Positions 21,642-36,683 of a stretch of DNA of 64,000 nt are shown here, piece after piece (positions within the stretch are counted from its first letter, which is position 1; the number at the start of each line of letters is the position of its first letter). The stretch comes from Guyparkeria hydrothermalis (GTDB lineage: Bacteria > Pseudomonadota > Gammaproteobacteria > Halothiobacillales > Halothiobacillaceae). The notes under the pieces were generated by a model. The model did not search any database, had not been told where the DNA came from, and saw nothing but the letters and a program-made list of their open reading frames with translations. Location of the stretch: the NCBI RefSeq assembly GCF_023555385.1, contig NZ_JAJSED010000001.1, forward strand, positions 372,001 to 436,000, given 5' to 3'. A program made the translations under genes and the position numbers.

Positions 21642-21752
21642 ATTCCTTGGGCCTCGGGCAAAGCGCCGAGAAGGTCAGGGCAGGGATGAGCGAGCAATTC
21701 CAGGAAGGTGGGATAAGCGGCCGGTGAGGCCGCAACGTCCGCTCGAGATGTC

Positions 21753-21808
21753 TGGTGCCGAGGGTCGGACTCGAACCGACACGGTATCTCTACCGGCGGA
21801 TTTTGAAT
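21753..21808 (-). repeat. 3' fragment of tRNA-Leu marking the left attachment end
   Basis: The minus strand reads from the anticodon loop through variable arm, T-arm and acceptor to the encoded CCA, but no D-arm or 5' acceptor strand precedes it. The T-arm and acceptor (33 bp) are identical to the intact gene at 36597-36683. The variable arm differs: CGGTA-GAGA-TACCG here, against GGGT-AAA-ACCC in the intact gene. Both can form a stem of the same total length, so this fragment probably comes from a once-functional gene. Confidence 0.8.
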
Positions 21809-22038
21809 TATGCCGAACCGCGTTTCCGGTGTTTTCCTAAGTCAACGGAAGGCCCGTCGTGGTGCGGTTCTGTTGAAACCGGAAGTCTTCAGAAGAATTG
21901 GGTTTTTTTCAAACCGTTGGTACCTCGACTGGTACCCCGCTGCTTGCCGTAAGTGCGAGAATCGGCGGCCCTTCCTGCGTTGATGGGGCAGAGGGATATC
22001 GCGAGGTTGCCTGTGCTACTAGCCCACTCTCGTTCGGT
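21785..22038. promoter_or_regulatory. left end of the element with paired GGTACC sites
   Basis: TTGGTACC at 21917-21924 and GGTACC at 21931-21936 are 12 bp apart. The right end has TTGGTACC at 36518-36525 and GGTACC at 36532-36537 with the same period. Such matched short repeats flanking an integrase gene and its target are typical of arm-type integrase or excisionase binding sites. No gene was recognised in the 254 bp. Confidence 0.5.
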
Positions 22039-22857
22039 TCACCCGGAGAATCGGTATAGGAGTAGGCCGTAGGGGTCTCTTCTCACCTTTTTCGCTTGCT
22101 CAATGTGGTACTCCGCGTCCTTCACACCGCTGTCGGCATAAGAGGTAGAGACCTTCTGAGGGAATAGAACTTCGGCGATCTCGCGTGATGTTGCACCTTG
22201 CAAGTGTCCGTCGAGTGCGCGGAGCATCACGGGGAGGCTTGTCTCCCTCGGGCCTTTGGCGCGACGTCTACCTCTCTCGCTTTTGATGATTTTTTTGATT
22301 TCTTCGGTTTGGCGATCAAGTGGCAGGGAAGGGTCCACTGAAATCAAGAGTCTTCCGGGAGGGATTGGCACAGCGTGCTCGTGATTTGCCAGGACCAAGT
22401 TGCCGTGCACATGCCGAGTCAGGTCGAGAGCTCCCTCATCGGCTCGATATGGCATGCGTGAATCTAGCAAGGGCGTAGGGCAATTGTCGGACCGGGGGTG
22501 AGGGACCCCACGTACCTTCCACTTATGCTCTAAGTGGTGGAGTAACGAAGGGCCGATAGCATCACCCGTTCTTCTTTCCCATTCCTCAATTGTCTCTTCA
22601 GGCTCGCATGGCGGGTCGCAGAAGCGCAGGCACGCTCGTTCGTCCAGAGACACGGGATTGAGAGAGAGCTTTGAGTTGGGTTTGCCATCGCTGTTGTGAC
22701 TCGGCAGGGAGTCGAAGTGCTCAACATCCCTCAAGTAATCAGGGTTGCGTCTGAGAAATGCCCACGCCCAACAGGAAACATCACAATCTTCAAAGCGTCC
22801 TGGGTAGCGACGCTCATCAATCCAGTCGGGAGTCCATGTGCAATGCGAGGTATGCAT
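22039..22857 (-). CDS. DUF6499-DUF2285-type regulator
   Basis: The 272-residue cytosolic protein has an N-terminal part with SCWAWAFLRRNPDYLRDV, the signature of the DUF6499 'transcriptional regulator-like' domain. Its C-terminal part (LPVMLRALDGHLQGATSREI and later RRDPYGLLLYRF) matches DUF2285, a compact helix-turn-helix-like domain. DUF2285 proteins include FseA, which activates excision of symbiosis integrative elements in Mesorhizobium. Here both parts lie in one reading frame. A role in controlling excision or element gene expression is therefore plausible, but inferred. The ribosome site before ATG 22857 is weak. It is transcribed in the same direction as the restriction cluster, 225 bp downstream of it. 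Confidence 0.6.
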   Translation of the reverse strand: MHTSHCTWTPDWIDERRYPGRFEDCDVSCWAWAFLRRNPDYLRDVEHFDSLPSHNSDGKPNSKLSLNPVSLDERACLRFCDPPCEPEETIEEWERRTGDAIGPSLLHHLEHKWKVRGVPHPRSDNCPTPLLDSRMPYRADEGALDLTRHVHGNLVLANHEHAVPIPPGRLLISVDPSLPLDRQTEEIKKIIKSERGRRRAKGPRETSLPVMLRALDGHLQGATSREIAEVLFPQKVSTSYADSGVKDAEYHIEQAKKVRRDPYGLLLYRFSG

Positions 22858-22961
22858 AGTGTCCTGGTTCGGGTGAACGTGTCTGAAACGGGTTGAGATC
22901 GCACGTTGTGCCTATTCTCGGGGCCTTGTCTGGGTATTCAGTCAGTGTGGGCTCGTTTCGC

Positions 22962-23020
22962 GCCTGGCTCCTCAAGCGGGATCCTTGCGTGGAACTTGCT
23001 TCTTTTTTAGGGAGCCAGGC
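22962..23020. repeat. 10-bp inverted repeat with a 39-bp spacer
   Basis: GCCTGGCTCC at 22962-22971 is the exact reverse complement of GGAGCCAGGC at 23011-23020. The spacer holds TCTTTTTTA on the plus strand. It lies between the DUF2285-type gene and the nuclease gene; no function is evident. Confidence 0.5.
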
Positions 23021-23081
23021 TTAGGGCCGTTGGTACTTGGCCAAATGATTCGGCAAGCCGACGTGCCACGAATTCGAGGAG

Positions 23082-24806
23082 CTATAGGAAGCATTCGGAG
23101 GCGAGGAGTTGGTTGACTTTTGCTTCGAACAGTTTGGTCGAATTAGGCAAAAACGGGATTCCGCCGATCTCGACTTGATCAATGCTCTGATGAAAACGAT
23201 GTCCTGAGTAGTCGATTTCGTTCGGATGAGGAAATAACACCGCAGCGCCAATAACGACGCCCCGTTGGTATTCCTGTGTAATCGGGTGGGGGATGGCGAT
23301 AGCATCACGATAGCGATGCATCGTGTTGATGTCCTCTTCCATGGGGCCAGCCCCCCCATGTTTCCGCATGTAATCCTTGTCAAATTGAATTCGATACTTC
23401 GCGTCGAAAATGTAGAAGCGGTCGTTGCTGGCGAACTGGATGACGTTGTCCGGCTTTTGGGAAGTCGTCGGTAACTTGTTGAACATGCGGTTGTAAACCA
23501 CGTGCAGCTCTTTGCCGGTGGGCCTGTGTATAAACCTCATCGCCGAGGGTTTGCCCTTCTTCAAAGTTACCGTCAGCTTCATCCGCTTGAACTGGACCAC
23601 CGTTTGCTCTGCAAGCTCGAAATGCTCTTTGAGCAGGCTGATAGTCTTTAAGAAACACCAGTACTCGTAGAGAAGTGCTGTGTCCTTAACCCCGATTGGC
23701 ACAACTTCCCCGGAGAACGACAAGCCCCCGTTCACAAGCCGGGAAAGCTTGTCAAACCGTGCGTATAGGGGGTGTTTGTGGAATACCAGTGAATCGGGCT
23801 TTTGAAGCGTGTTTTTGGACACTTGAGCGAGAAAGGGCAATCGAAGTACTGCCTCGACTTGACGTTGCATTTCTTTCAGCTCGTCCCGGATAGAATCAAG
23901 AAACCGGCTTTCGGAGTCTTGGTCGGCGTCTTCGTCTTCTGAACGTTGTGTTCGTGCAAGTACCCTAATCTTTCGGTGTGTCTCTACCAGTATCCCCTTG
24001 AAATAGCGGTTTTCTGGGGTGTTGAATGTCGTCCATGAAATCGTCTCTTGGATGCGGCGGGGGAGCGGTCTTTTCAACCTTGGGTGCAGTGGCCCATTGT
24101 TCGCACGACGCATCGCTCGATTGATCGTATGGCGGGATACCCGGCGAGCACGCTCGGTCTCGGTCGTTGCGGTCTTTTTTACCAGTGTTGAATGCGGGTT
24201 CTTGGCTATGCCTCGGGCGAGCTTCATGGACTCATCGAAGTACTGCTGCACTAGCGCGAACCATTCGATCAGGGTAGGGCTGCGGCTTCGAGAGGGGGCG
24301 GCCATGCTATAGGTCTTGGCGTTTGCGGTCATGGCCAAGTTGCGCAGCATTCCGCTAACTTCTGTGCGCATTGCCAAGTAGTCGGTCTTGTAGTCGGCTT
24401 TTCGCGAGAACACCTCGAGGGAGATTCGTGCGTGGCTGGCTGGTCCGTCTATTGAGATGTCGGCGAAACCCACGTTGTTCCCGAAGTTGAGGAAGTGATG
24501 TTCGGCTCTGTCTCTGACGCGCCGAGGATCAGACCCAGGCGGCAATGAGACGCTCACAGCTTCATCATCTTTCTCAATGTATATGTCGTATCCGACCGCT
24601 TCGTAGAAAAGGGGCTCCATCGCCTCACCTGGGGCGATAGGCTGCAGACGTCCGCTCTCAGCGTTTATTCGCGTCATCTGTTTAACGCCTGTCGCTCCTA
24701 TCGATGAGTTCGGAGTCGTCGATAGAAAGGGAGCAAGCTCGGGAAGCTTTCCAACTATTTCCAGTTTCCAGCCGGTTCCCTCAGCTTGAAAAAGCGTTGG
24801 CATCAC
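23082..24806 (-). CDS. DUF2357 restriction-like nuclease (McrC/LlaJI-like partner)
   Basis: The 574-residue protein has the DUF2357 organisation: an N-terminal beta-rich domain, a central helical region (LLYEYWCFLKTISLLKEHFE) and a C-terminal PD-(D/E)xK-type nuclease with IFDAKYRIQFD (Asp468 and Lys470). DUF2357 proteins pair with McrB-like AAA+ proteins in type IV-like or LlaJI-like restriction systems, where they supply the cleavage subunit. Its start ATG 24806 overlaps the stop of the AAA+ gene by 4 bp (ATGA), showing tight coupling. The region is visibly richer in A+T than the chromosome outside the element. Cleavage specificity cannot be read from sequence. Confidence 0.75.
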   Translation of the reverse strand: MMPTLFQAEGTGWKLEIVGKLPELAPFLSTTPNSSIGATGVKQMTRINAESGRLQPIAPGEAMEPLFYEAVGYDIYIEKDDEAVSVSLPPGSDPRRVRDRAEHHFLNFGNNVGFADISIDGPASHARISLEVFSRKADYKTDYLAMRTEVSGMLRNLAMTANAKTYSMAAPSRSRSPTLIEWFALVQQYFDESMKLARGIAKNPHSTLVKKTATTETERARRVSRHTINRAMRRANNGPLHPRLKRPLPRRIQETISWTTFNTPENRYFKGILVETHRKIRVLARTQRSEDEDADQDSESRFLDSIRDELKEMQRQVEAVLRLPFLAQVSKNTLQKPDSLVFHKHPLYARFDKLSRLVNGGLSFSGEVVPIGVKDTALLYEYWCFLKTISLLKEHFELAEQTVVQFKRMKLTVTLKKGKPSAMRFIHRPTGKELHVVYNRMFNKLPTTSQKPDNVIQFASNDRFYIFDAKYRIQFDKDYMRKHGGAGPMEEDINTMHRYRDAIAIPHPITQEYQRGVVIGAAVLFPHPNEIDYSGHRFHQSIDQVEIGGIPFLPNSTKLFEAKVNQLLASECFL

Positions 24807-26287
24807 ACACCCCAGAAACGAGTTACACCGTCTAAGTCCAGCAGCGAGCTCATGCGGGAGACCTTTTCTCGGCTCCTTTCGAGTGCCCCCGCAAATTCCG
24901 CGTCAATGCCGTCGACTCCTAGACTCGGCTCCGATCGGGCGTCGAGCCAGTCGGAGAGTTGGTTCAAGGCGAACTCTAGGGCATCGCTATTACCGGATAC
25001 TTTTGGCAGGACCTTCTGCAGAAGGCAGAAGTCGAGCGCCGCGCTGCCAGAGAGCACGTCCGAGAGGCCGAATTCCCGCCAGAAGTGAAGGTAGAGGAGA
25101 ATAGAGTCGCGCGTTCGGTAGCCAAACTTGATGCCTGTCGGAGCGAGAATGTCCTGTATTTCGCTCAGCCATGCGGCGACATGCTCGAACAAGTCTTGGT
25201 TCTTGGATTGGGCTTCCATCACACTGATCGCATTGTCGGGATCAATTACCGCTTGAGCTAAGCCCTCAAAGTTGGCGTTAGTGTCACTTTCGCCGATGGC
25301 AAATGCCGTTAGATCAGGGTCGTCGAACTCGATAGTGAAAGCTCGATCGAGCACTTTTGGGCTGAACGAATGAGTGGTCTCGTCCATGTTGGCTGTGCCG
25401 ACAACTCGCAAATTGTGCGGAAGCTCAACGCCGCGAAGTTCCTCGCATAGGGAAGAGTGTGCCTCGCTGGGCTCAGATGGCAGGTCTATCGGTAAAGGAT
25501 CTGAGCCGATTTGGCCGCTTTTACGTTCACGAGATTCGGCCACGGAGAGGAAGTCGCTGAAGTAGTACTCGACTGGCGCTAGGTTCATTTCGTCGAGCAG
25601 TGCGATCGAGAGTGAGTCCGGGTGACGTTTGGCGTCAAGTATCGAATCGACAATCTTGCCTTTGATAAAGGTATCGTTCGCCAATGCGGGGACGTAACCG
25701 AACAGATCGCTGTTATCGGCCCACTGTGGCTGAACGGGGATTGACTGGAAGTTGGAGCTTGTGAATTTTGCAAATTTGCGAGGGAGGAGGCTTTTGCCGG
25801 TTCCGGAGATGCCGGAAAGAATTACAAGTGGGCTCACCGTCATCGCGAGGAAGAAGTTGGCCAGCTCGGCTGGAGAAATCAGGTAGCCTTCCGCCTCCAT
25901 CGATTTCTGAATGCTGAAAATTGCTTCGCTAAGGTTTGCAGTAGGTGCTCCCGCTTGTGAGGCGGAGGGCGATTCGGAGAAAGGGGCAGAGGTCTTGTTC
26001 TCCGGGACTAGTTGCTCGCCAAAACGGTATTCCGTCGTGGTGCTTCCAGCACGGGGGCCGGATTGAGCTCGAGTCTTGGCGCCGGTCTCTTGCAGGTACC
26101 CACGCTTAACTAGACGTCGCGGTACCGGGGGCTTCCTCGTCGAGGGAATTTCGAAGTCGCCAGGGATGAATTGCCATATAGCGTCAGTGGGGAAGCGGTG
26201 ATCTGGGCCATGCATTTCTAGCATCGCTTCAAGAGCTTGGATGGCTAGGTCGTCTATTTGCTCTTTATCTGTAATCGAGGCCGCCAT
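24803..26287 (-). CDS. McrB-like AAA+ NTPase
   Basis: The 494-residue protein has an N-terminal winged-helix-like region (residues about 1-95, PRRLVKRGYLQETG) possibly involved in DNA reading, then an AAA+ domain. Walker A is GISGTGKS (159-166), followed by the McrB-type QPQWADNSDLFGYVP stretch. Walker B is LLDEMNLAPVEYYFSDFL and the sensor region is GTANMDETTHSFSPKVLDRAF. McrB-family motors use GTP or ATP to translocate DNA and activate a partner nuclease, here the DUF2357 protein encoded in overlap downstream. ATG 26287 has an excellent GGAGGAG site and starts 20 bp after the methyltransferase stop, so all three genes form one operon. Confidence 0.8.
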   Translation of the reverse strand: MAASITDKEQIDDLAIQALEAMLEMHGPDHRFPTDAIWQFIPGDFEIPSTRKPPVPRRLVKRGYLQETGAKTRAQSGPRAGSTTTEYRFGEQLVPENKTSAPFSESPSASQAGAPTANLSEAIFSIQKSMEAEGYLISPAELANFFLAMTVSPLVILSGISGTGKSLLPRKFAKFTSSNFQSIPVQPQWADNSDLFGYVPALANDTFIKGKIVDSILDAKRHPDSLSIALLDEMNLAPVEYYFSDFLSVAESRERKSGQIGSDPLPIDLPSEPSEAHSSLCEELRGVELPHNLRVVGTANMDETTHSFSPKVLDRAFTIEFDDPDLTAFAIGESDTNANFEGLAQAVIDPDNAISVMEAQSKNQDLFEHVAAWLSEIQDILAPTGIKFGYRTRDSILLYLHFWREFGLSDVLSGSAALDFCLLQKVLPKVSGNSDALEFALNQLSDWLDARSEPSLGVDGIDAEFAGALERSREKVSRMSSLLDLDGVTRFWGV

Positions 26288-26307
26288 GGCTCCTCCAGGT
26301 CTTACGG

Positions 26308-27675
26308 TTACGCGGTAGTTTTCGTGCTTGAGTAGTGCGCGTCGAGCTGTGATGCGAGATGCTTAGCGATGGCTTCAGATAGGGTGGGGGGGACCGCCTC
26401 CCCAATCATATCCATGCCAACGCCGATGCGGGTCGTGTTGTTGCTGTCAGTCATTGAAGTGACGAATCGGAAATCGTCATCGAATGATTGCAAACGAGCG
26501 GCTTCGCGCATGGTGATGCCCCGCATTTCTTCGGGATGCGAAAAGCGTCCGGAGCCGAGAAAGTTGGCGTTGGCCGTGATTGTCAGTGCCGGAGCGTCCC
26601 ATGCCAACCGTGAATAGGCGCTCCAGTAATAGTCACGATAGAAAGCGGGATTGATTAAGCCCTCGGCTTCCAGTCGGGTGCGGGCTTTCTCGTGCGACAT
26701 CGCCTCGGCGCGAGCCTTTTTCGAGATGGCCCGTTCATACTTGGCTCGCATACGCTTGCTCTCGGTATCCCAAGTTTGCCCTGGGCGCATTTCCTTGATG
26801 ATGTTGAGCACCTGCTGTTTGTAACTTCTCGTGAGATGGTTGTGCGGGAATCTCGCGGAGGTGCGCATAGATCGTGCAAAATCGCTCGGCACCTCCCCGT
26901 ACAAGTCCTTTGGTCCGCCGCCAAGACTATCTTTGCCCAATGGGGGCGGAGGTAAGTCGCTAATGGCGTCTTTAACGGTAACCCATGGTTTTAAACCCGA
27001 ACTCATGAGTCTCTGATCTGTTGGGTTGCCATGGGTTTTCGGTGGCATCGAGACGGCGCCGACGGAGCTTGCGATAAAGATTGCACGTTCACGAAGCTGA
27101 GGTACGCCGTAGTCGGCGCAGTTCACAACCGCGACCTCTACTGTGTAGCCAAGATCCTTCTCAAGCATTTGAATCACGAGTTCCGAGAGCTTGCCAAGGC
27201 GACCTTGGAAGCCGTGATTGAGCATCTGTGGGACGTTCTCAATTACCAGAAACTTGGGCCGCAAGGCTTCCGCGACCTCAAGAAAACGTAGCACCAAGTC
27301 ATTGCGAGGATCGTCTGCGAGTTTGCTGTAGCCGGAAAATTTGACGATCTTTCCTTGTTTTCGGTGCTCATTCCGCCTCAGTTGCGAGAACCCTTGACAG
27401 GGTGGGCCACCAATCATCACGTCGAGATCGCCTTTCCTTACACCTCGGTCGGCCAACACAGAGTGGATGGTATCCACGTCGAGCAAACGAATGTCTTCGC
27501 GAATAGTTGATGGGGGGACATCGTCATTCGCGTGATTGAACTCGAACGTGCGCAACGCCTCGCTTTTCACGTCGTTGCCCAGTGCCACGTTAAAACGACC
27601 GGAACGGGTGAATCCTCGGGAGGTGCCGCCACAGCCGCAGAAAAATTCGGCCAAAGAATATTTTTTAGATGTCAT
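26308..27675 (-). CDS. dcm: DNA cytosine-5 methyltransferase
   Basis: The 455-residue C5-cytosine methyltransferase has motif I FFCGCGGTSRGF, motif IV GGPPCQGFS with catalytic Cys93, motif VI IENVP, motif VIII QLRERAIFIA, and motifs IX-X near the C-terminus (RLQSFDDDFRF; IGVGMDMIGEAVPP). The long segment between motifs VIII and IX contains the target recognition region. It heads an operon with the McrB-like and DUF2357 genes and is divergent from vsr, so it most likely protects host DNA from that nuclease pair. ATG 27675 gives a standard N-terminus (MTSKKYSLAEFFCGCGG) but lacks a clear ribosome site. TTG 27747 would add 24 residues. Confidence 0.88.
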   Translation of the reverse strand: MTSKKYSLAEFFCGCGGTSRGFTRSGRFNVALGNDVKSEALRTFEFNHANDDVPPSTIREDIRLLDVDTIHSVLADRGVRKGDLDVMIGGPPCQGFSQLRRNEHRKQGKIVKFSGYSKLADDPRNDLVLRFLEVAEALRPKFLVIENVPQMLNHGFQGRLGKLSELVIQMLEKDLGYTVEVAVVNCADYGVPQLRERAIFIASSVGAVSMPPKTHGNPTDQRLMSSGLKPWVTVKDAISDLPPPPLGKDSLGGGPKDLYGEVPSDFARSMRTSARFPHNHLTRSYKQQVLNIIKEMRPGQTWDTESKRMRAKYERAISKKARAEAMSHEKARTRLEAEGLINPAFYRDYYWSAYSRLAWDAPALTITANANFLGSGRFSHPEEMRGITMREAARLQSFDDDFRFVTSMTDSNNTTRIGVGMDMIGEAVPPTLSEAIAKHLASQLDAHYSSTKTTA

Positions 27676-28042
27676 TAGAGTGATGAATTGGTGTATTAGT
27701 TTTTGTGCGTGTGTTCTCGACGCAGGTCGGGCTTCGGGGCTCGGCAACCTGCCTGCAAGTTGGACGGGCTACGCGGCCTTGGTGTGTGATCCGTTAAATT
27801 CCCGAGAGCGAGAGGCGAATGTGTAGAACGCTAAATTGCGAGATCGAATAAAGCTTTCGACTCGCACGGCTGGCTTTCCGAAGCCTGCCTAGTCTGAGAG
27901 CCCTTCCCCAGACCCCACGACCGGATGGGTCGGAGAAGTGATCGTGGCGAAGGCAGAAATGACTTGCTCCCTGCGCATGTAAGCTGCCATTGTCGGATGA
28001 AATCGATTCCGATCCAAACGCGAACTGAGCGGGGTTGGCGCC
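27676..28042. other. divergent intergenic region between methyltransferase and vsr genes
   Basis: The 367-bp gap separates the leftward methyltransferase operon from the rightward vsr gene and must contain both promoters. The part nearest the methyltransferase is A+T-rich (ATTTTTTAGATGTCATTAGA region). No protein or RNA gene was recognised. Confidence 0.4.
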
Positions 28043-28501
28043 GTGGCAGATATTGTCGACGCACGCACTCGGTCGAGGATGATGTCCTGTGTGAAGAGCA
28101 GGAACACTAAGCCGGAGATGATATTACGGCGTTGGCTTCATGCGCGTGGCTTTCGGTACCGACTGCATGTAAGGAAACTTCCTGGGTGCCCAGATCTCGT
28201 GCTGCCTAGGTACCGTGCCGTCATACTGATTCATGGATGCTTCTGGCATCGTCATGAGGGGTGCCGGTTCGCCACTACACCCCAGACACGCTCGGAGTAC
28301 TGGGCCAACAAGTTTCAAAGAAACGTCAACCGGGATAGAGACAATCATCGAGCTCTGTTAGAGGCTGGCTGGAGAGTGGCAACAGTTTGGGAGTGCGCTT
28401 TGCGGCATGGCAGCAGGGAGGAGCTCTTGGCGGCGCTTGCTGGTTGGCTGAAGGGTGAGCAGCGAGAGTTCAGTTCTGATGTTGTAGTTGCGCCGATGTG
28501 A
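28043..28501 (+). CDS. vsr: very short patch repair endonuclease Vsr
   Basis: The 152-residue Vsr-family endonuclease nicks next to T:G mismatches that arise when 5-methylcytosine deaminates, which keeps C5 methylation from being mutagenic. Residues corresponding to the E. coli active site are present: Glu25 (NTKPE), Asp51 (CPDLVLPRYRAV), His64 and His69 (IHGCFWHRHEGC); the WECAL segment lies near the C-terminus. The start is GTG 28043 (MADIVDARTRSRMMSCV). It is divergent from the cytosine methyltransferase, the partner expected from its function. Confidence 0.9.
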   Translation: MADIVDARTRSRMMSCVKSRNTKPEMILRRWLHARGFRYRLHVRKLPGCPDLVLPRYRAVILIHGCFWHRHEGCRFATTPQTRSEYWANKFQRNVNRDRDNHRALLEAGWRVATVWECALRHGSREELLAALAGWLKGEQREFSSDVVVAPM

Positions 28502-28628
28502 ATTGTCTCGATTGTCCCAAAGTGCCTGGGAGGCTCTTGTTGATCAATTTCACTAGTATCCCAAGGTACAGTTTCCGCGCCACTGCTTGTGGCGAGTAGT
28601 GTCCAAACAAATTAAGCGAGAGAACATC

Positions 28629-28841
28629 ATGTCGACCTCAGGCACCCCAAGCATTACGACGGAGCAGTTCTGGCAGATGCTGGAGCTGGTGGCCAGCCCT
28701 GACTGTGATGCCGATACGGACGAGCTTGCGGAGGCTCTTGGCATGATCGCAAATGGCTCCGAGGAAGTAAGGGAAGAGGGAACCAGGAAGTTGCTCGACG
28801 AAGTGGGCAGGTACCTCCCGAACTTCTCGGGCACCGAGTGA
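28629..28841 (+). CDS. small acidic hypothetical protein
   Basis: The 70-residue protein starts at ATG 28629 (GAGAGAAC upstream) and is rich in Glu and Asp (DCDADTDELAEALG; EEVREEGTRKLLDEVG). It is predicted helical and soluble. I recognise no family. It follows vsr by 127 bp in the same direction. An acidic protein of this size on a mobile element could be a regulator or DNA mimic, but nothing here shows that. Confidence 0.45.
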   Translation: MSTSGTPSITTEQFWQMLELVASPDCDADTDELAEALGMIANGSEEVREEGTRKLLDEVGRYLPNFSGTE

Positions 28842-28880
28842 TTGAACCCCGTGTCGGTTGATGCGGGCTAAAGATGAATA

Positions 28881-28915
28881 GAAAAAACCCGCTAAGCCAA
28901 AGGCCTAACGGGTTT
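28881..28915 (-). terminator. terminator of the 28942-29553 gene
   Basis: On the minus strand AAACCCGTTAGGCC pairs with GGCTTAGCGGGTTT around a short loop (two weak positions), followed by a run of six U. It lies 27 bp past the stop of the leftward gene. Confidence 0.75.
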
Positions 28916-28941
28916 GCGTGGTCACACAGGGTGACGGTCGA

Positions 28942-29553
28942 TCACACAACATTGGCGGGTTTCATGTTCGCCTGGTTGTGTTCTTTGTGGCGATCAAACA
29001 TCGCCTTCTCCGCTTTCAGCAGCCTGGCTTGGAAGCCGATGTCGGGTTTGACCCGGATGAGAGCCTCCGGCTGTCGATGCGCTGCCCTCCATGACCAGTA
29101 GTGATACTCCTCGGCATCAGGCACAAGCAACATGCAGTGCTGCATGCGAACCCAGTCCTCGGTAGGAACTATGTTGCCCAAGGCTTTCCGATGGTCTGCC
29201 TCTTGTCCTGAGCCGAATATCGCCACGGTCTCGCCGGTTATGTCGAGAGCGTCGATTCCCGCACCAAGCCATTGCATGCCATTCCGGTTTGCCTGAATGG
29301 TCTTCGGTGCAACGACCGATGACACGTGCTCCCGGTAGGAATCGAGCGCGTCGCCTCTGGGCACGATGTAGCGAGTGTTGTCACTATCACCGGTTTTGCC
29401 CTCCGGCGGGACGAAAGGCTCCAGTCTCAATGAAGCGCGGAACTCCGCCTTCCGAAGGGTGTTCAGGAGGTCCCAGTCGGAAAAGACCGATTGCTGCCAG
29501 GCCATCCACTGAGCGGGGTTGCTTCGAACATTCACGATGTCATACGTCATCAT
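28942..29553 (-). CDS. possible YqaJ/lambda-exonuclease-like protein, degenerate
   Basis: The 203-residue protein resembles YqaJ-type viral recombinase nucleases in the order of its blocks. GDALDSYREHV corresponds to the conserved Glu/size segment, GMQWLGAGIDALDITGE to the 'aSxDG' segment with its Asp, and TEDWVRMQHCMLLVPDAEEY to the 'QxQxQL' segment before the C-terminus. The Glu-x-Lys that should follow the Asp reads AIFGSG, so two catalytic residues seem lost. The assignment is by motif order only and is tentative. If right, it may be an inactive or single-strand-annealing accessory factor of the element. Start ATG 29553 or 29550, with AGGAAAG upstream. Confidence 0.35.
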   Translation of the reverse strand: MMTYDIVNVRSNPAQWMAWQQSVFSDWDLLNTLRKAEFRASLRLEPFVPPEGKTGDSDNTRYIVPRGDALDSYREHVSSVVAPKTIQANRNGMQWLGAGIDALDITGETVAIFGSGQEADHRKALGNIVPTEDWVRMQHCMLLVPDAEEYHYWSWRAAHRQPEALIRVKPDIGFQARLLKAEKAMFDRHKEHNQANMKPANVV

Positions 29554-29929
29554 TCTTTCCTCATTTCGGGGTCAACACGCATCTCGTCTGGCGAGATGAT
29601 CCTTCCCACACCGTTGGTGTGTTCAGGAGGGGATTGCGTGCATAAAAAAACCCACCACCTGAGGACTTGAGTTGAGAGTCAGATGACGCGCGGCAGCTGT
29701 TTGGTCAGCTTCCGCTTGCGAATGGAATCCGGGATGCAAAAAGCCCCCGGGGCTTGTGGCCTGGCTTGGATGGGATGAAGCCAGACGGAGGCCCGGGGGC
29801 GTATGATTGAACTAGGCTACGTTGTGCCGGATGGCCATTCAAGCGGCCGTTTCACGGAGCCCATGAATGGTGATGCGGGAGTCTGGCTGGGTAGTTCGAG
29901 AAAGTAGATTGATGATCTGGGAGGCAGGA
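29554..29929. other. hairpin-rich intergenic stretch in the element
   Basis: This 376-bp stretch has no convincing gene. Near the left end are two tight hairpins, ATCTCG-TCTGG-CGAGAT at 29581-29597 and CACACC-GTT-GGTGTG soon after; both lie just upstream of the leftward gene starting at 29553 and may be operators or leader structures. A long G+C-rich hairpin occupies 29743-29800 and is listed separately. Confidence 0.45.
29743..29800 (-). terminator. long G+C-rich hairpin, probable leftward terminator
   Basis: GCCCCCGGG (29743-29751) pairs with CCCGGGGGC (29792-29800), and inside it CTGGCTT (29761-29767) pairs with AAGCCAG (29778-29784). Read leftwards the structure is followed by five U. 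No leftward gene ends just upstream of it, so its transcript is unclear. Confidence 0.5.
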
Positions 29930-30079
29930 ATGAGCGATCTTTCATTGGCAATCATCGTGACGGGATGTGTGGTCCTTCTCATTGGCTTCGCCTTGAAGCG
30001 TCTTGGCTCCTGGATGGACAAGAACCGGGCTCGGTTCGAGCGAGAGTTTCAAAAGCTCGAGCGCGGGAGCGGGAAGTAG
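29930..30079 (+). CDS. small single-pass membrane protein
   Basis: The 49-residue protein has a hydrophobic N-terminal segment (LSLAIIVTGCVVLLIGFAL) followed by a basic, amphipathic tail (RFEREFQKLERG). ATG 29930 has a good GGGAGGC ribosome site. I recognise no family; small membrane proteins of this build occur on many mobile elements, some as toxins or superinfection-exclusion factors. No partner gene is apparent. Confidence 0.5.
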   Translation: MSDLSLAIIVTGCVVLLIGFALKRLGSWMDKNRARFEREFQKLERGSGK

Positions 30080-30147
30080 CGGTGCATTGCCAATGCGCCC
30101 TGTTGTAACAGCTGAGTTGCAACATCCTATGTGAGAGTCACAGGTAA

Positions 30148-30180
30148 CTGTCACAGTCACAGTGAGTGTGACAGTGACAG
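30148..30180. repeat. origin-like inverted repeat made of TGTCAC units
   Basis: CTGTCACAGTCACA (30148-30161) and TGTGACAGTGACAG (30167-30180) pair at 13 of 14 positions around GTGAG. A further AGTCACAG lies just to the left (30137-30144), so the region is an array of TGTCAC/GTGACA units in both orientations. It sits 17 bp beyond the 3' end of the unrecognised 238-residue gene. The layout recalls iteron or single-strand origin structures; function is inferred. Confidence 0.55.
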
Positions 30181-30197
30181 GTTTGGCTACTAAGGCG

Positions 30198-30914
30198 TCA
30201 GGGCTGGTCTGTCTGGGCCTTGAAGGTCCCCAGCCACGGCAGGTTGTCTGGAGAAGAGGCCGGCCAGGGTTGGCCATTGCTGTGTTTCAGCCACACGCGC
30301 TTGGCTCGGCGGAGCATCTTGGCGACTTGTGTTCGCACGCCGGAGTGCATCGGTCGGCGCAACAGCGACCCCTTAAGGTAGGACCTCATGCGGGAGGGGT
30401 CGCCGCTTCTCCCGGCCGCCTGAGCGAGCGCAGTCACGTAGTTCGCTTCCAGCTTCTCGACCTGAGGCGCCAGACACCAGGTCCACCGGCTGCCCCCTCC
30501 ATGCTTGCGAGGGCGGGTCAGATGCATCAGCACGTAGTCTCCCCACGTGATCCGATCCTTGTGAGCATCTTGGAGTGCCTCCTGCTCCTTGACCGCGCCC
30601 TTGCCGGATCTCGTCACCAGCAGCACCCATCGAATTTTCTCCCGCCCGCTGGCATCTGGTGGCAGTCGTGCGCCGATGAGGCGTGACGAGCACCGCCCCT
30701 TACGCTTTCGGTGTTGCCGAGCCGCAGGAGAAATATCGACTTCGTAACGGACAACGAATTTCTCCACCAGACGCTCCCACTTCTCGATAGGCACGTCGCC
30801 CATTACGTAAAGCGGGTTGGTGTGAACGGCTTTCGAGATGGCGCGCTGCGCCTCGACTTGCGACGGATACAGGACTTTCATGCTCATGGGCAAAGTGTAG
30901 CGCATCAATCGCAT
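30198..30914 (-). CDS. hypothetical basic protein of the element
   Basis: The 238-residue protein is strongly basic in the second half (MLRRAKRVWLKHSNGQPWP) and has aromatic-rich stretches (RITWGDYVLMHLTRPRKHG; SRWTWCLAPQVEKLEANYV). No family could be named. Basic character and position between two palindromes at its 5' end and an origin-like hairpin past its 3' end suggest a DNA- or RNA-binding role, perhaps in replication or in handling the neighbouring structured RNA. Both suggestions are inference. Start choices are ATG 30914, 30905, 30887 or 30881; none has a strong ribosome site. Confidence 0.45.
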   Translation of the reverse strand: MRLMRYTLPMSMKVLYPSQVEAQRAISKAVHTNPLYVMGDVPIEKWERLVEKFVVRYEVDISPAARQHRKRKGRCSSRLIGARLPPDASGREKIRWVLLVTRSGKGAVKEQEALQDAHKDRITWGDYVLMHLTRPRKHGGGSRWTWCLAPQVEKLEANYVTALAQAAGRSGDPSRMRSYLKGSLLRRPMHSGVRTQVAKMLRRAKRVWLKHSNGQPWPASSPDNLPWLGTFKAQTDQP

Positions 30915-30952
30915 AAGTGATTGATGTAAAAACGCGATGATCTTCGATCATC
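30903..30952. promoter_or_regulatory. two tandem palindromes, candidate operators
   Basis: CATCAATC (30903-30910) and GATTGATG (30919-30926) form a perfect 8-bp inverted repeat. GATGATC (30936-30942) and GATCATC (30946-30952) form a perfect 7-bp inverted repeat with a TTC loop. They cover the start of the leftward gene at 30914 and precede the rightward structured-RNA region, so they could control both. Confidence 0.5.
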
Positions 30953-31020
30953 ATCCTGTAAATAATGTTCCTAGCAGCGGTTCGCTGTGGGTTTTTTCTT
31001 GCCGACAATCCCTCGCGAAG
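30953..31020 (+). promoter_or_regulatory. leader with terminator-like hairpin ahead of the structured RNA
   Basis: CAGCG-GTT-CGCTG (30975-30987) is followed by TGGG and six T (30992-30997) on the plus strand, which looks like an early terminator or attenuator. No rightward gene ends here, so it may gate transcription into the region beginning near 31021. No confident promoter hexamers were found. Confidence 0.35.
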
Positions 31021-32140
31021 GGCCAACCTGAGGCCCGGTGGGGTCACCGCCAACTTTCGGTGGCTGCCACGCGACGATTTGGTGGGCACGGCCGCGTGAC
31101 TGGCGGTCTCCCGATGTCGTTCAACGGGACGCCATCGGGGAGGCCGCCAACCTCACGCCATGCCAAACAACACACCACGGGCTGTACAGCCCCAGGGGAC
31201 TGCCAATCCCCAGGCCGAGGACTGCCAACCTCGGCCAGCGTCACTTCGCGCCCGTTACGGGTAATTCCGTTCGGCGGGTGCAAGGGAGGCTCCGGCGAGT
31301 AATCCCGCTCCCACGTGGAGCGGAGTAATCCGCCGGTTCTATCCCATCCCGCGATCCGGCATGGATCGACCTGGGATGTTGGGTGACTCGGAAACGGACA
31401 CGGGGAGGAAATGCCCCGTGATCCTGTCCCGGCAAGATCAGGTAGCCAGTCCTGACCTGGGGGTGCGGGAAACCGCGCAACCAGTGCCACACACGTGGGC
31501 CGTCCACGCTGTCCGTGAGGGCAGCGCCGGGTTCACGCAGCGAGTGCTGCGGGGAGTCCGGTGTACCTGTCGGTGAGCCATGAGGGCAAAGCCGATGGGG
31601 CAGGCGGGAGCGTAAGCGTGTAACGGCACCGTTCGGGTGCTGTGTGGAGCTGTCAGAGCCGACTAGGGTAGCGACCTGCGATGTTTGCAAAGTCACACGG
31701 GCGTAAGCGAGCCGTTGTGGAGCATTGGGCCGCCGAAAACCGCAAGGATGAGCGGTGATGGTATCCGTGTGATGACGAGCAACTAGGCGCTGACAGAGTG
31801 ATGCCGACGACTAACGAGGGAAAGGGCCGAGAGGGTCGGGCGGTTGGCACCGTTCGGCACGGGAGTAACGATCCCGAGAAGACCTCGACGCCTGGAGAGC
31901 GATCCGCGAGTAGGCGAAACCTCGATCTCGAAAGGATCGAGGGAGCCGGGCAGTCCGCGACGGATTGGCCCGGCACTGTCAGGTGGCACTGGCAGGCCGA
32001 AAGCGGGCGGTGACGTGAAGGTGTGTCTCCGGGATTGGCGTCCCGTTGGCATGTTGGCGTGCGCAGGCAGGTGGAACTGTCTGTGCATACAGTGCATCCG
32101 GCTTGGCCGCCGGATTAACCAATCAATTTAGGAGGTTGAG

Positions 32141-32212
32141 ATGACCAGAAGTAGGGCTGTCTTCGCGCCACGCAGTGGCTCGGCGGCATGTTTCTTGAGA
32201 CCGGCTCGATGA
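32141..32212 (+). CDS. 23-residue leader-like peptide frame with a perfect Shine-Dalgarno
   Basis: ATG 32141 follows TAGGAGGTTGAG, an almost ideal ribosome site in an otherwise weakly translated region. The peptide (MTRSRAVFAPRSGSAACFLR plus three residues) is basic and unlike known families. It lies between the structured RNA and its terminator. It could be a real small protein, a leader peptide, or chance. Confidence 0.35.
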   Translation: MTRSRAVFAPRSGSAACFLRPAR

Positions 32213-32254
32213 GCCGAGTGACGATCCATGACGATGACGTACCGTCATGAACCA

Positions 32255-32289
32255 AACCCACCTTGCCTTTGGCTTGGTGGGTTTTTTTG
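32255..32289 (+). terminator. strong rho-independent terminator after the structured RNA
   Basis: AACCCACC (32255-32262) and GGTGGGTT (32276-32283) pair, with an inner GCC/GGC pair around TTT. The stem is followed by a run of T on the plus strand. No conventional rightward gene ends here, which argues that the RNA region itself is the transcript. Confidence 0.88.
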
Positions 32290-32472
32290 CTTGAGCCGGG
32301 AAGGCGAAGAGATGTTGGAAGATTTAGAAGGGCGTCTGCCCTAACCCCGTACCCCCTCCCTCAGCGAGCCCTGGCAATAACAGCACAGCTACGCATGACT
32401 GCCGAACCTCATCGGTTTTGAGGCCGACATGTGTGTGACTGGCCGGCCAGCATGGTGATAATTCCGCACTTC
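32290..32472. other. intergenic, short palindromes
   Basis: The 183-bp gap lies between the RNA terminator and the leftward helicase gene. AGGGC-GTCT-GCCCT (near 32330) and the 12-bp palindrome CTGGCCGGCCAG (near 32440) are visible. The gap also holds the end of an alternative frame that overlaps the helicase 3' end (see findings). Confidence 0.4.
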
Positions 32473-34083
32473 TCATGCGAGCATCTCGCCATCCTTTCCA
32501 CGCATCTCTTGTGCAACTCGCGCAACTCGCGCAACGCCATGTCCGGGTGCGGTTCCTGGGCGCGCTTTCCCTTGCGAAACACGCGCAGGTCGTGGAGGTA
32601 GATTCGTGCGCGCATCCTCCTCCTGCTCGCTGTGCGCGCTGTTGCGCATCGGCGTGACGCCCCTTGAGGTGTCGTCTTGCGCGTTATGCGCGTCTTGCGC
32701 GGGACGAGAATACTCTTTGGTTGTGCCGAAACTTTCTTTTTGGCGCTCCCGTTGCTCGAGCAGACCGTCGGCGAGCAGCTCCTCGAGGACCGCGGTCAGG
32801 TCCTTCGCCTTGATCCGTTTTGCGAATATCTCGCGCTGAATCATGGTTCGCGTGACCCATCTCCCAGCTGCGATACCGTTGAGTATCTTTTGTTTCTGTT
32901 CTCGACGCTTCTCCGATTCGATCCGCTGGTTCATGTCTTGCCCGAATATGAAGCCAACGGACTCTCGGTGAAACCGCGACCAAGCTAGAGCGGCCCGCAT
33001 GTGCGCTGCCGAGATTACGTCGGTCTGGTCGGTCATGGCGAGCAGGCCGGCTTGCCGTAGGGTGATTGGTGCGCGACGTTCGAGCAGTGCAGTAACAATT
33101 GCCGTTGAACCATCACGCCGTCGCAGATCAGGGTATGCCTCGCGGTACATTTCCCGCGCCTCTTTGGAGAGCTTGATTGCGGTGGCGCACTTGGTGCGCG
33201 GGTAGTCACCAAGGGCGAACTTGATCACGTCCCTGGTTTGAACTGCTAGCCGGTGTACTGCTTCGTCTGGCGTCGGCTCAGGGAAGGGGACTAGGCAAGT
33301 GCGCTCGGCGAAGATCATCAGGAAACGATTCATCAGGCCGTTGAATGCTGCGGTGGCATCCATTCGAGCCCGCAATTCGTGAGGAGTGATCGCCCCATGG
33401 ATGGCCACATGAGGTTCGGTAGCCCAGATGCTGGCTGACTTGGTGGCCGGTTGGATTGATCCCCCGTCGAACAAGTCCCGGATGGTCGGGCTAAGGGTGT
33501 TGCCGTCACGCTTGCCTTGCTCAAGCAATTTGGCGAACTCTGCTTCGATGATCAGAAGGCGCTTGTCATTAATCGGCGCATGCTCTGTTTTCCCGAGAGT
33601 GAAGCCGTCATGAACCTGTGCCGCGAGGCCCTCGCCAGTCGACAGCCCGCCGGAGTGAATCCGGCCGGCGAACAGCGTAGGCGTGACGACGGCGCCCTCT
33701 TCATCGGTGCGCTGCGTCGGGTTGCCGTCCATCATTTCTCCGACGGCGTAACGAATGCGCTTGACCAGCGCCCAGCTCTCGCCCTTGGCCGCAACCATGG
33801 AACGGCCGACGTGCAGGCCGTTGATGAGCAAAGGGTGGGTCTGGTCGCCCACGGAAATAAAGTGGTGGCGGCCCACAGCAGCGGAAAGCCACGTTAGAAA
33901 GGCCAACGCCACGCTTGCCCGGTTTGGTTCCCGCCCCATTGTTGCCGCCCTTGCTACGTCGCCCACGAGGCCGTGGAACATGGCGGGGTCTGGCTTTGGA
34001 GGTGCGACGGTGTAGTCGCGTTCGTCTAGCTCTGACTCGAGCGGATTGGAGGTCAGGGCTTCGGCTTGCTCTGCGATGCTCAT
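32473..34083 (-). CDS. DUF3987-like primase-helicase of the element
   Basis: The 536-residue protein resembles the DUF3987/YfjI helicase-like family used by satellites and integrative elements. It has an N-terminal LTSNPLESELDERD region, then LAFLTWLSAAVGRHHFISVG, a LLIIEAEFAKLLEQGKRDGN segment in the Walker B position, HVAIHGAITPHELRARM, and GLMNRFLMIFAERT with an arginine-finger-like pattern. The expected P-loop is replaced by NGLHVGRSMVAAKGESWALV, which is not a standard GxxxxGK[ST]. The last 60 residues are low-complexity (Ala, Arg, Pro). ATG 34083 overlaps the upstream stop by 4 bp (ATGA). It is the last gene of a four-gene leftward replication block. Confidence 0.65.
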   Translation of the reverse strand: MSIAEQAEALTSNPLESELDERDYTVAPPKPDPAMFHGLVGDVARAATMGREPNRASVALAFLTWLSAAVGRHHFISVGDQTHPLLINGLHVGRSMVAAKGESWALVKRIRYAVGEMMDGNPTQRTDEEGAVVTPTLFAGRIHSGGLSTGEGLAAQVHDGFTLGKTEHAPINDKRLLIIEAEFAKLLEQGKRDGNTLSPTIRDLFDGGSIQPATKSASIWATEPHVAIHGAITPHELRARMDATAAFNGLMNRFLMIFAERTCLVPFPEPTPDEAVHRLAVQTRDVIKFALGDYPRTKCATAIKLSKEAREMYREAYPDLRRRDGSTAIVTALLERRAPITLRQAGLLAMTDQTDVISAAHMRAALAWSRFHRESVGFIFGQDMNQRIESEKRREQKQKILNGIAAGRWVTRTMIQREIFAKRIKAKDLTAVLEELLADGLLEQRERQKESFGTTKEYSRPAQDAHNAQDDTSRGVTPMRNSAHSEQEEDARTNLPPRPARVSQGKARPGTAPGHGVARVARVAQEMRGKDGEMLA

Positions 34084-34595
34084 GCGAGAAAGCCTCCCGC
34101 TTGGATCATGTTCCGGATTCGTTTTTCCGCATCGATAAGCGCTTCCAGGTCTGCGTCGTCGAGCCATCCGTCGCGTCGGATCTGGGCTGCGGCTAGAGAG
34201 ACGATGATCACGTCCATGGCCAGAGATTGGAGTGCCTGCGTCGCAGAGAATCTCGGTCCCTTGTGTGGCGACCGATTACCGTCGGTGCGAGAGTGTCGCA
34301 GGTGCTCGGGAATCAGTTCGATTGGCTCGAGCCCGAGTCCTCGAAGGACCTCGCTGTTACTGCAGCCGGCTCTGCAGTGCATCAGTACGATGCCTTCTTG
34401 CGTTTCGGAGACAAGCAGGCTGGGGTGCTTATCCTCGTGTTGTGGGTTGGCGCAACGGCAGACCATCGCCCGGGCTAGGCCCGGCGCCGGCTTAGTCTCT
34501 CGAGATGCGTCAACGCGGACGAGGATTTCGTCGAAAGGTGAGCTATGATGACCATGTGTGTGGCGGCCCTGCTCTTCGGAGTGGGGTTTTGTCAT
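34080..34595 (-). CDS. CHC2-type zinc-finger (primase-like) protein
   Basis: The 171-residue protein carries a CHC2-like zinc finger at residues 46-78. Ligand candidates are Cys46/Cys48 and His53 in CRCANPQHEDKHPSL, and Cys74 and Cys78 in LMHCRAGCSNSEVL. This is the DNA-reading finger of DnaG-type primases. The TOPRIM catalytic part is absent, so it probably acts with the DUF3987 protein encoded in ATGA overlap downstream, which splits primase-helicase functions between two proteins. The C-terminal half is helical. A His-rich N-terminus (GRHTHGHH) is notable. Confidence 0.7.
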   Translation of the reverse strand: MTKPHSEEQGRHTHGHHSSPFDEILVRVDASRETKPAPGLARAMVCRCANPQHEDKHPSLLVSETQEGIVLMHCRAGCSNSEVLRGLGLEPIELIPEHLRHSRTDGNRSPHKGPRFSATQALQSLAMDVIIVSLAAAQIRRDGWLDDADLEALIDAEKRIRNMIQAGGFLA

Positions 34596-34834
34596 TTCTT
34601 GACCTCCCTTTTCTGCTCCTTCTGCTCCAGTTGCCCCGTCTCAGAAGGGCGGTGGGGTAGTGCGTTTGCCTGGTAGATGACGAGGCGACGGGGCGCTCTA
34701 TTGCCGGGCAGGCGGGTTCTAAGAGGGGGCATAGCCTCTGGTCTTTCTTCGCTGTGGATCGCGATCCGCAGAGATCGCCACGCTTCACAGCGGCAGATCT
34801 CGGCTGTGAATGGATGACTAGTGGCATTGCTCAT
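34592..34834 (-). CDS. small basic hypothetical protein in the replication block
   Basis: The 80-residue protein has no recognised domain. It is rich in Arg, Pro and charged residues (RTRLPGNRAPRRLVIYQANA; LEQKEQKREVKK). It overlaps both neighbours by 4 bp, so its translation is coupled to the genes for the AlpA-like protein and the zinc-finger protein. A role in replication control or excision is possible but unsupported. Confidence 0.5.
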   Translation of the reverse strand: MSNATSHPFTAEICRCEAWRSLRIAIHSEERPEAMPPLRTRLPGNRAPRRLVIYQANALPHRPSETGQLEQKEQKREVKK

Positions 34835-35058
34835 GCGTCACCTCCATCCATCCATGTGAAATAACCGTTAACGTCGATCAGGACTCGGCGGCCTATTCGG
34901 CGGATGTGCGGGGCGAGGCCGTTCTTCTCAGCGCGTGCGATCTGCATGCGGATCGCTCCGGTGGAGAAGGGAACAGACTGCATGGTAGCCAGCTGCCTGA
35001 CGGTGGCAAATGCCTTTGCCGGCGCGGTTTCGGGGTGGGGAATGTCTGTTGTTTGCAT
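34831..35058 (-). CDS. AlpA/excisionase-like helix-turn-helix protein
   Basis: The 75-residue protein contains a winged helix-turn-helix of the MerR/AlpA/excisionase type: TVRQLATMQSVPFSTGAIRM as the HTH and HIRRIGRRVLIDVNGYFTWM as the wing. Such proteins act as recombination directionality factors or as activators of satellite and prophage operons. It is the first gene of the four-gene leftward replication block and lies 353 bp from the integrase gene. It is the best candidate for the element's excisionase or master switch. Start ATG 35058. Confidence 0.7.
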   Translation of the reverse strand: MQTTDIPHPETAPAKAFATVRQLATMQSVPFSTGAIRMQIARAEKNGLAPHIRRIGRRVLIDVNGYFTWMDGGDA

Positions 35059-35411
35059 TGGATGACTCCTGGTTTCTGATGTGTGCAGGAGCCATCTTGG
35101 TGTTTCGGTTTTAATGAGTCGTCCTAAAAATAAAGGGCGACTCTATTCCTAGGAGCGCTTGGCTGACGGGTAAGTCAGCGTGCTCGTCACAAGGGATTTT
35201 TCTGCTTTAGACGGCCTGCGCTTAGCCTCGGGGTCATGCCATGCTTGGCTTTGTGCGGAAGCCGGAGGCGGGCGGTTCGAAATGCTCGAAGGGGAGATGG
35301 CTGGACGGTGGCAGAGTCAGTCCCCGCGCCTGTTTACTTGCGTGTGGAGCAGGTTGTCAGAGGCGGCAGGCGCCCCTCACGCATTATCACGCCTGAAAAA
35401 GGCGAACGCGA
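35059..35411. other. intergenic region between integrase and replication block
   Basis: The 353-bp gap holds the likely promoter of the leftward replication block. A hairpin at 35116-35143 pairs GAGTCGTCC with GGGCGACTC (8 of 9) around the A+T-rich loop TAAAAATAAA, which looks like an operator over a promoter core. Nothing else was recognised. Confidence 0.45.
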
Positions 35412-36470
35412 TCAGGTTTTGCGTTCGTCACCGAAGACACTCGCGTTCATGCGCTCGAGCACACCTACCGTGTGCTGTTCGCTCAGGTGGCTGTATCGGG
35501 CGACCATGGCGAGGGTCTTGTGCCCGAGCACGGCGGCGATCTCCGATGTGGTCGCGCCGTGCATTGCCAAGTAACTCGCGGCGGTGTGCCGCAGATCGTG
35601 GAACACGAAGTCTTCGATCCCGGCATCTTCCAGAGCCTTCCCCCAGGCGCCTCGAATGTCCATCGGTTTGCGCGAATCCTTGTAGCTCGGGAACAGCAGA
35701 TCGGTGTCGATCCGAGGCGCTTGGCGTAGGTCCTTGAGTCGGTCGAGCGCCTCACCGATCAGCGGGACGGCCCGGCGCTCGCCGTTCTTGGTGTCGCCCA
35801 AAACGATCACGCGGCGGGATAGGTCTACGTTGTGCCAGGTCAGGTTCATAACCTCTCCATGCCGCATGCCAGTCGAGAGAGCCAGCGTGACGATGGTGTG
35901 AAGGTAGGGGTTGGGGCTCGCGGCGGTCTGCTCGAGTAGGGCGGTACGCTCCCGGTCGTCAAGGAACCGGACACGACCACGCGGCTCGGGGCGCTTGCGG
36001 ACCTTGCGGACGGGGTTGTCCTCAAGAAGGTGCCACTCGCTCGAGGCGACGGTGCAGACGTGAGAGAGGGCGGCGAGGTAACGGTTGACGGTGCTACCGC
36101 TCCGATCCTTGGCCAGCTCGTCGCGCTTCTCGGCGATCAGGGCAGGGCGTAGACGGTCGAGGGTGGTCTTGCCGATCTCCCGCTTCCACCAGGCGAGCTG
36201 GCGAACCTGGTCGCGCTGGGTGCTTGGCTTCTTGTCCGGCAGGACCGTCCCGAGGTAACGGTCGATCAGGGCGTCGACGGTATTGCGTCGGCGTTCCTGG
36301 TGCTCGAAGTAGGTTCCGTCAAGAATCTGCTTTTCGACCTTGGCCGCCCAGGCATGGGCGTCGGTCTTGCGCGGGAAGGTCTTGTTGACGACGGGGTAGC
36401 CGGTGATCCGCACGCGGGCCTTGTAGCGAACCTGCCCGGCCTTCGTCTTGAGCTTGGTCACGGTAGCCAT
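35412..36470 (-). CDS. int: tyrosine recombinase, integrase of the element
   Basis: The 352-residue phage-type integrase has an N-terminal arm-binding-like segment (KAGQVRYKARVRITGYPVVN), a core-binding SAM-like domain (TVDALIDRYLGTVLPDKKPS) and a full catalytic set: Arg203 (STGMRHGE), Lys228 (DTKNGERR), His291 and Arg294 (HDLRHT), His317 (LGHKT) and the nucleophile Tyr326 (ARYSHLS). Its start is 127 bp from the 3' end of tRNA-Leu, the usual place for an integrase whose target is that tRNA. All catalytic residues are present, so excision may still be possible. Confidence 0.93.
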   Translation of the reverse strand: MATVTKLKTKAGQVRYKARVRITGYPVVNKTFPRKTDAHAWAAKVEKQILDGTYFEHQERRRNTVDALIDRYLGTVLPDKKPSTQRDQVRQLAWWKREIGKTTLDRLRPALIAEKRDELAKDRSGSTVNRYLAALSHVCTVASSEWHLLEDNPVRKVRKRPEPRGRVRFLDDRERTALLEQTAASPNPYLHTIVTLALSTGMRHGEVMNLTWHNVDLSRRVIVLGDTKNGERRAVPLIGEALDRLKDLRQAPRIDTDLLFPSYKDSRKPMDIRGAWGKALEDAGIEDFVFHDLRHTAASYLAMHGATTSEIAAVLGHKTLAMVARYSHLSEQHTVGVLERMNASVFGDERKT

Positions 36471-36519
36471 CTGATACCCCCTGAAACGGCCAGTTACAGG
36501 GGGAGGATATCAGCAAATT

Positions 36520-36555
36520 GGTACCTGCTTTGGTACCTTCAGGGGGTGTGGTACC
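36520..36555. promoter_or_regulatory. right-end GGTACC sites, candidate integrase arm sites
   Basis: GGTACC occurs at 36520-36525, 36532-36537 and 36550-36555. The first two are 12 bp apart and the first is preceded by TT, exactly as at the left end (21917-21936). They lie between the integrase start and the tRNA. Confidence 0.5.
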
Positions 36556-36596
36556 TAGGTTGCATCAGGCGGCATCGCCTAACTGCTTGTTTTTAC

Positions 36597-36683
36597 TGGT
36601 GCCGAGGGTCGGACTCGAACCGACACGGGTTTTACCCCGGCGGATTTTGAATCCGCTGCGTCTACCAATTCCGCCACCCCGGC
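36597..36683 (-). tRNA. tRNA-Leu(CAA)
   Basis: The 87-nt gene includes an encoded CCA. Acceptor strands are GCCGGGG and CCTCGGC (one G-U pair), the D-arm is GCG..CGC, the anticodon stem GCGGA/TCCGC encloses TTCAAAA with anticodon CAA, the long variable arm is GGGT-AAA-ACCC, and the T-arm GTCGG-TTCGAGT-CCGAC is intact. It reads UUG codons. Its 3' half is shared with the fragment at 21753-21808, so the present gene is probably a host 5' half joined to an element-borne 3' half. Confidence 0.95.

Follow-up and report, generated by a model that had tools for sequence, protein, structure and literature searches.

The question raised by this locus is what a stretch of more than 1.1 kb without a credible protein gene represents within a mobile element of Guyparkeria hydrothermalis, and why it should be kept there. 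From the many strong helices of the plus strand, the original prediction proposed a giant structured noncoding RNA, unmatched to any known class and carried by a tRNA-integrated element. The window, i.e., the whole stretch of 64,000 nucleotides that was analyzed, does hold such an element, with an integrase gene beside a tRNA-Leu and an exact 33-bp direct repeat (21752-21784 and 36596-36628) at its ends; its main features are collected in Table 1. The element also carries restriction-type genes, namely those for a C5 methylase, a Vsr protein, an AAA ATPase, and a DUF2357/PDDEXK nuclease.

Table 1. Features of the RNA locus and of its host element, in window positions
Feature	Positions	Strand	Basis or remark
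Host integrative element, 14.9 kb	21752-36628		33-bp direct repeat of the tRNA-Leu end
orf203, unclassified protein	28942-29553	minus	common to the G003 cassette, 56% amino acid identity
orf238, linked protein of about 235 aa	30,198-30,914	minus	no match to any Pfam, NCBIfam, PHROGs, or PADLOC family model
Giant structured RNA gene	30,975-32,288	plus	fold z-score, homologues, covariation; ends approximate, 3' end set by the terminator
Conserved RNA core	about 31186-32010	plus	aligned in 23 homologues
5' hairpins with CUGCCAA-type loops	31186-31250	plus	sequence, alignments; number differs among homologues
Multibranch domain, source of covariance model R1	31484-31649	plus	
AGGAGG and 23-codon frame	32130-32212	plus	sequence
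Intrinsic terminator	32262-32288	plus	sequence
Helicase/primase-type genes	32473-34595	minus	PHROGs
Tyrosine integrase	35412-36470	minus	PF00589; adjoins tRNA-Leu

The plus strand of the RNA region, about 1.2 kb in length, proved to have no credible protein gene, and its folding departs clearly from chance: positions 31380-32110 fold at -357 kcal/mol vs -315 ± 6.5 kcal/mol for 20 dinucleotide shuffles (z -6.4), none of which matched the native strand, whereas the minus strand reaches a z of only -1.8 in the same test. Many of the helices are backed by covariation in 23 homologues, aligned by sequence with MAFFT. The RNAalifold consensus of these RNAs comprises 94 pairs, 72 of which show one or more two-sided compensated changes, and nine column pairs are significant at E < 0.05 in a tree-aware test (our own R-scape-like procedure, with tree-aware nulls, run on every pair among 798 columns); all nine are standard pairs inside predicted helices. 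Standard pairs fill 94% of the consensus-pair cells, and G-U combinations number 322 vs 34 for A-C, which points to an RNA of plus sense rather than to DNA hairpins. The giant RNA is thus under strong base-pair selection in the sense of the plus strand, and with more than 500 nt and an elaborate covarying structure it has what defines a giant ornate noncoding RNA. Long open stretches do occur on the minus strand of G+C-rich members; a protein-coding reading of the region was set aside as the less likely one, since both the covarying pairs and the surplus of G-U cells are what an RNA would show.

The 5' part of about 190 nt is variable, and the core starts at about 31186. At the 3' side, the predicted same-sense terminator was recovered, and so were the ribosome site (AGGAGG at 32130-32135) and the tiny frame, whose ATG is at 32141. 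The frame itself fared less well, as it reads ATGCGTTGA in the homologue from G358 and ATGCTGTAG in that from G310; to judge by these sequences, it is not conserved in distant homologues. The word GTGGGTTT (30993-31000), near the 5' end, is complementary to AAACCCAC (32253-32261) at the 3' terminator, so that the two RNA ends could pair with each other; both words are also present in the same-genus genome G003.

G003 also carries a copy of the locus. Its core (31186-32139, 954 nt) contains no indel and has 95.8% identity, while identity is 72% for the 5' RNA part (31000-31185), 82.1% for the orf238 gene, and 68.5% for orf203; the RNA core is, therefore, more conserved than the neighboring protein genes. 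The cassette formed by orf203, orf238, and the RNA occurs in two elements with different integrases, near a tRNA-Phe in G003 (L004, 17690-19832) and at the tRNA-Leu in the window (28942-30914 plus the RNA). Beside distant RNA copies orf203 was not seen.

Searches with the divergent neighbor orf238 turned up related genes both in genomes of gammaproteobacteria and on 27-28 PLSDB plasmids, and at nearly every such locus an unannotated gap of at least 1.2 kb adjoins the orf238 gene. With a profile made from 18 RNAs, the core was recovered at nearly all of these loci; it is missing from two Acetobacteraceae plasmids, from a truncated locus, and from copies that are decayed or cut. The nhmmer match in the window, whose copy was included in the seed alignment, spans 31236-31865. 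The Acetobacteraceae relatives of orf238 (L032, L040) are longer proteins, of 388 aa and extended at the C terminus, and no RNA is detectable near them. In all, RNA homologues were identified in at least 27 loci from gamma-, beta-, and alphaproteobacteria, on small plasmids as well as conjugative ones and on tRNA-integrated elements or islands; on the Pseudoalteromonas plasmid pMtBL the RNA and orf238 share a strand. One match to the RNA search, in G041, is a coding gene and was discarded as a homologue. Among other elements adjoining or accompanying the RNA are CRISPR-DR16 repeats on a chromosomal contig of G182 (L020, 45-1991) and a PrrB/RsmZ-family sRNA on an 8-kb Azotobacter plasmid (L030, 3668-3811).

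The coupling between RNA and protein was quantified in 369 gammaproteobacterial genomes, with the RNA counted by covariance model R1, which represents one domain of 151 positions. All seven RNA-positive genomes fall among the eight that are orf238-positive (Fisher 4.6e-14), the eighth having a short orf238 match on a 5-kb contig, and in one further R1 match (G686) orf238 is placed about 250 bp from the RNA. The genetic linkage of the RNA with orf238 relatives extends over alpha-, beta-, and gammaproteobacteria. This linked protein, like the plasmid and conjugation context described below, was absent from the original prediction.

As for the identity of the RNA, the covariance models of Rfam 15 gave no relevant match at gathering threshold, neither in the window nor at 19 loci of homologues; GOLLD, ROOL, HEARO, and OLE did not reach their gathering scores in the window, and the group II intron models had no match there or in the homologues. 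No description of the RNA was found in the literature, in a search covering few subscription journals. Sequence comparison thus upholds the predicted lack of a known relative, in that the RNA is a giant class matching no catalogued family. The one weak match in the window, to the folP motif, scored 24.1 bits against a gathering threshold of 99, with nothing consistent in the homologues; this identity was rejected, since the score is far below threshold and most homologues have a loop other than the shared AGGAAAUG at that place. The AGGAAAUG hairpin loop, at 31406-31413 in the window and resembling the loop of the Rfam motif, is also present in Burkholderiales members and in G288.

The protein orf238 is basic, and profile searches of solved structures gave no match for it. 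No relaxase domain was recognizable with Pfam and NCBIfam, no nuclease signature was recognized, no reverse transcriptase (RT) or maturase was matched in Pfam, and the YxDD motif is not conserved. A first structure model of the window protein was poor (pLDDT 67) and had a structure match to the thumb region only, while the AlphaFold2 model of a relative (L048), obtained with an alignment of six sequences, reached a pLDDT of 83.6 and a pTM of 0.79. With VIA-align, the latter model matches group II intron RTs best (8h2h_D, Z 8.8, rmsd 4.2 Å over 196 residues; 6me0_C, Z 8.6; 6ar1_D, Z 8.3), then Prp8, with retron RTs lower; the top 20 matches are all RT or Prp8, and neither an HUH nor a tyrosine-recombinase fold is among the structure matches listed. 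On its own, Foldseek yielded nothing significant (best E 0.22), and for this reason the assignment is considered likely rather than proven: orf238 likely adopts a palm-plus-thumb fold like that of group II intron maturases and Prp8, devoid of the conserved RT catalytic residues. Given this predicted fold, orf238 probably binds the giant RNA.

The same resemblance brings in the reading that the pair is a degenerate group II intron, its maturase stripped of the RT part, that does nothing but persist. A domain V hairpin was found by motif scan in none of 27 RNAs and no intron boundaries were seen, nor, as said, was there any Rfam intron match; because this hairpin is missing and YxDD is not conserved, the RNA is not a group II intron. 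Moreover, decay is hard to square with covariation and linkage that have lasted over large distances. We regard this reading as very improbable, even though a derived relationship of the RNA and orf238 to group II introns is possible.

The plasmids that carry the pair offer the main hint of a function. With MOB-suite, which can miss divergent relaxases, 27 of 28 orf238 plasmids were typed as non-mobilizable (27 of 27 in another count), a result that is unremarkable for small plasmids; several of those so typed, however, bear large sets of type IV secretion genes. Of 1297 plasmids with a related coupling protein, only 132 were typed non-mobilizable; this coupling-protein set includes at least 14 of the plasmids with orf238. 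BLASTP comparison of four divergent conjugative plasmids, i.e., E. coli pLAU-OXA4, Paraburkholderia pBN5 (which carries the entry-exclusion gene eexN), Gluconacetobacter pGDIPal5I, and Pandoraea pPO70-4, left only orf238, the coupling protein, VirB11, and TrbM common to all, and the unassigned proteins of three of the four contained no relaxase domain. In the E. coli, Paraburkholderia, and Gluconacetobacter plasmids, the coupling-protein gene adjoins the RNA or orf238.

Because the RNA-protein pair occurs where the known transfer-initiating enzymes are missing, it may mark an unrecognized route of DNA transfer. Our tentative reading, which we place just short of an even chance, is an RNA-protein module for the conjugative mobilization of elements that have no recognized relaxase; we infer this role, for which SGI1 offers a partial precedent. 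The orf238 protein would bind the giant RNA, and the resulting ribonucleoprotein (RNP) would act in mobilization together with a particular coupling protein and the type IV secretion channel. Since the RNA is found without orf238 on 3-kb plasmids, its locus may have a cis-acting part comparable to that of an origin of transfer; in the window, this locus would allow mobilization of the excised element. Co-residence of one RNA-only plasmid with a large carrier counts in favor of the mobilization reading, whereas the large plasmid's absence from the other six such strains, the Acetobacteraceae orf238 loci without RNA, the Foldseek result, and the want of a recognized nuclease signature in orf238 count against it. 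In a stronger form, which we deem decidedly improbable, the RNP would itself be the transfer initiator for an entire class of plasmids and integrated elements, recognizing oriT in place of a protein relaxase and, by conjecture, perhaps cleaving it by RNA chemistry or RNA guidance.

That the RNA adjoins transfer genes on several plasmids, and that orf238 is basic and likely RNA-binding, would suit a regulator of conjugation or plasmid biology, in which the RNA and orf238 as its chaperone control transfer-gene expression, fertility, or copy number in a FinP/FinO-like manner. Yet the RNA is also found on 4-kb plasmids and integrated elements that lack transfer genes, and its size and depth of structure are far above those of antisense regulators. 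On pMtBL it lies at 3117-3721, outside the minimal OriR (1918-2759), which replicates without it (PMC10033558); the RNA is therefore not needed for replication, and a replication role was set aside as unlikely. Regulation in general we also consider unlikely.

The E. coli records bear on a different alternative. Among 5426 RefSeq E. coli genomes, 21 carry the RNA, on 22 plasmid records and on no chromosome, and it is annotated in none of them. Seven of the 22 are 3-kb plasmids with the RNA core and no orf238; one shares its strain with a 34-kb carrier (p 0.019), and six of the seven strains lack the large plasmid. Two of the 3-kb plasmids, both of the RepL type (NZ_CP045717 and NZ_CP195810), of whose length the RNA core takes up about a quarter, also encode a hypothetical protein of 150 aa. 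Persistence of RNA-only plasmids in strains without orf238 fits a self-serving or defensive RNP cargo unrelated to transfer (addiction, anti-restriction, superinfection control, or a cage like those formed by the giant RNAs GOLLD and ROOL (PMC12286853)), as does the restriction-modification nature of the window element. However, orf238 and orf203 have no PADLOC match, and neither the RNA nor orf238 was found in 50,697 phage records; RNA-motif scans of viral contigs yielded nothing or coding coincidences, and scanning the proteins of viral contigs and phage records produced no match. Cargo would also leave unexplained the enrichment on plasmids without a known relaxase, beside a coupling protein, and we take it to be rather unlikely.

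Whichever the function, these data add to the giant RNAs a class whose protein partner is defined and which, being found on short plasmids and in E. coli, lends itself to direct tests. A large RNA joined to a maturase/Prp8-like protein in a setting other than introns or the spliceosome would also inform on the repurposing of maturases. If the mobilization reading is true, plasmids scored as non-mobilizable move by an unrecognized route, and the long-standing gap of a secretion apparatus without a relaxase becomes testable.

Among known systems, GOLLD and ROOL are large ornate noncoding RNAs of mobile elements whose function is unknown (PMC12286853). The window RNA resembles them in all these respects of size, structure, and setting, but it has no Rfam match, resides on plasmids and islands, and is absent from the phage records searched; in addition, no protein partner has been identified for ROOL, whereas the window RNA has a constant linked protein. 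OLE RNA and its Oap proteins likewise combine a large RNA with dedicated proteins, although in other hosts, with no covariance-model match and with an unrelated protein. Group II intron RNPs and Prp8 share the pairing of a large structured RNA with a partner, to which the predicted fold aligns over residues 1-216; unlike in introns, domain V, intron boundaries, and a conserved YxDD are lacking, and orf238 is roughly half as large, with its gene lying outside the RNA. Related to the proposed role is SGI1, an integrated element whose relaxase is atypical and whose mobilization requires an RNA, sgm-sRNA; derivatives of this RNA have about 330-450 bases, and MpsA and MpsB are relatives of tyrosine recombinases (PMC9299015). 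The window RNA is larger by comparison, and its predicted partner is maturase-like.
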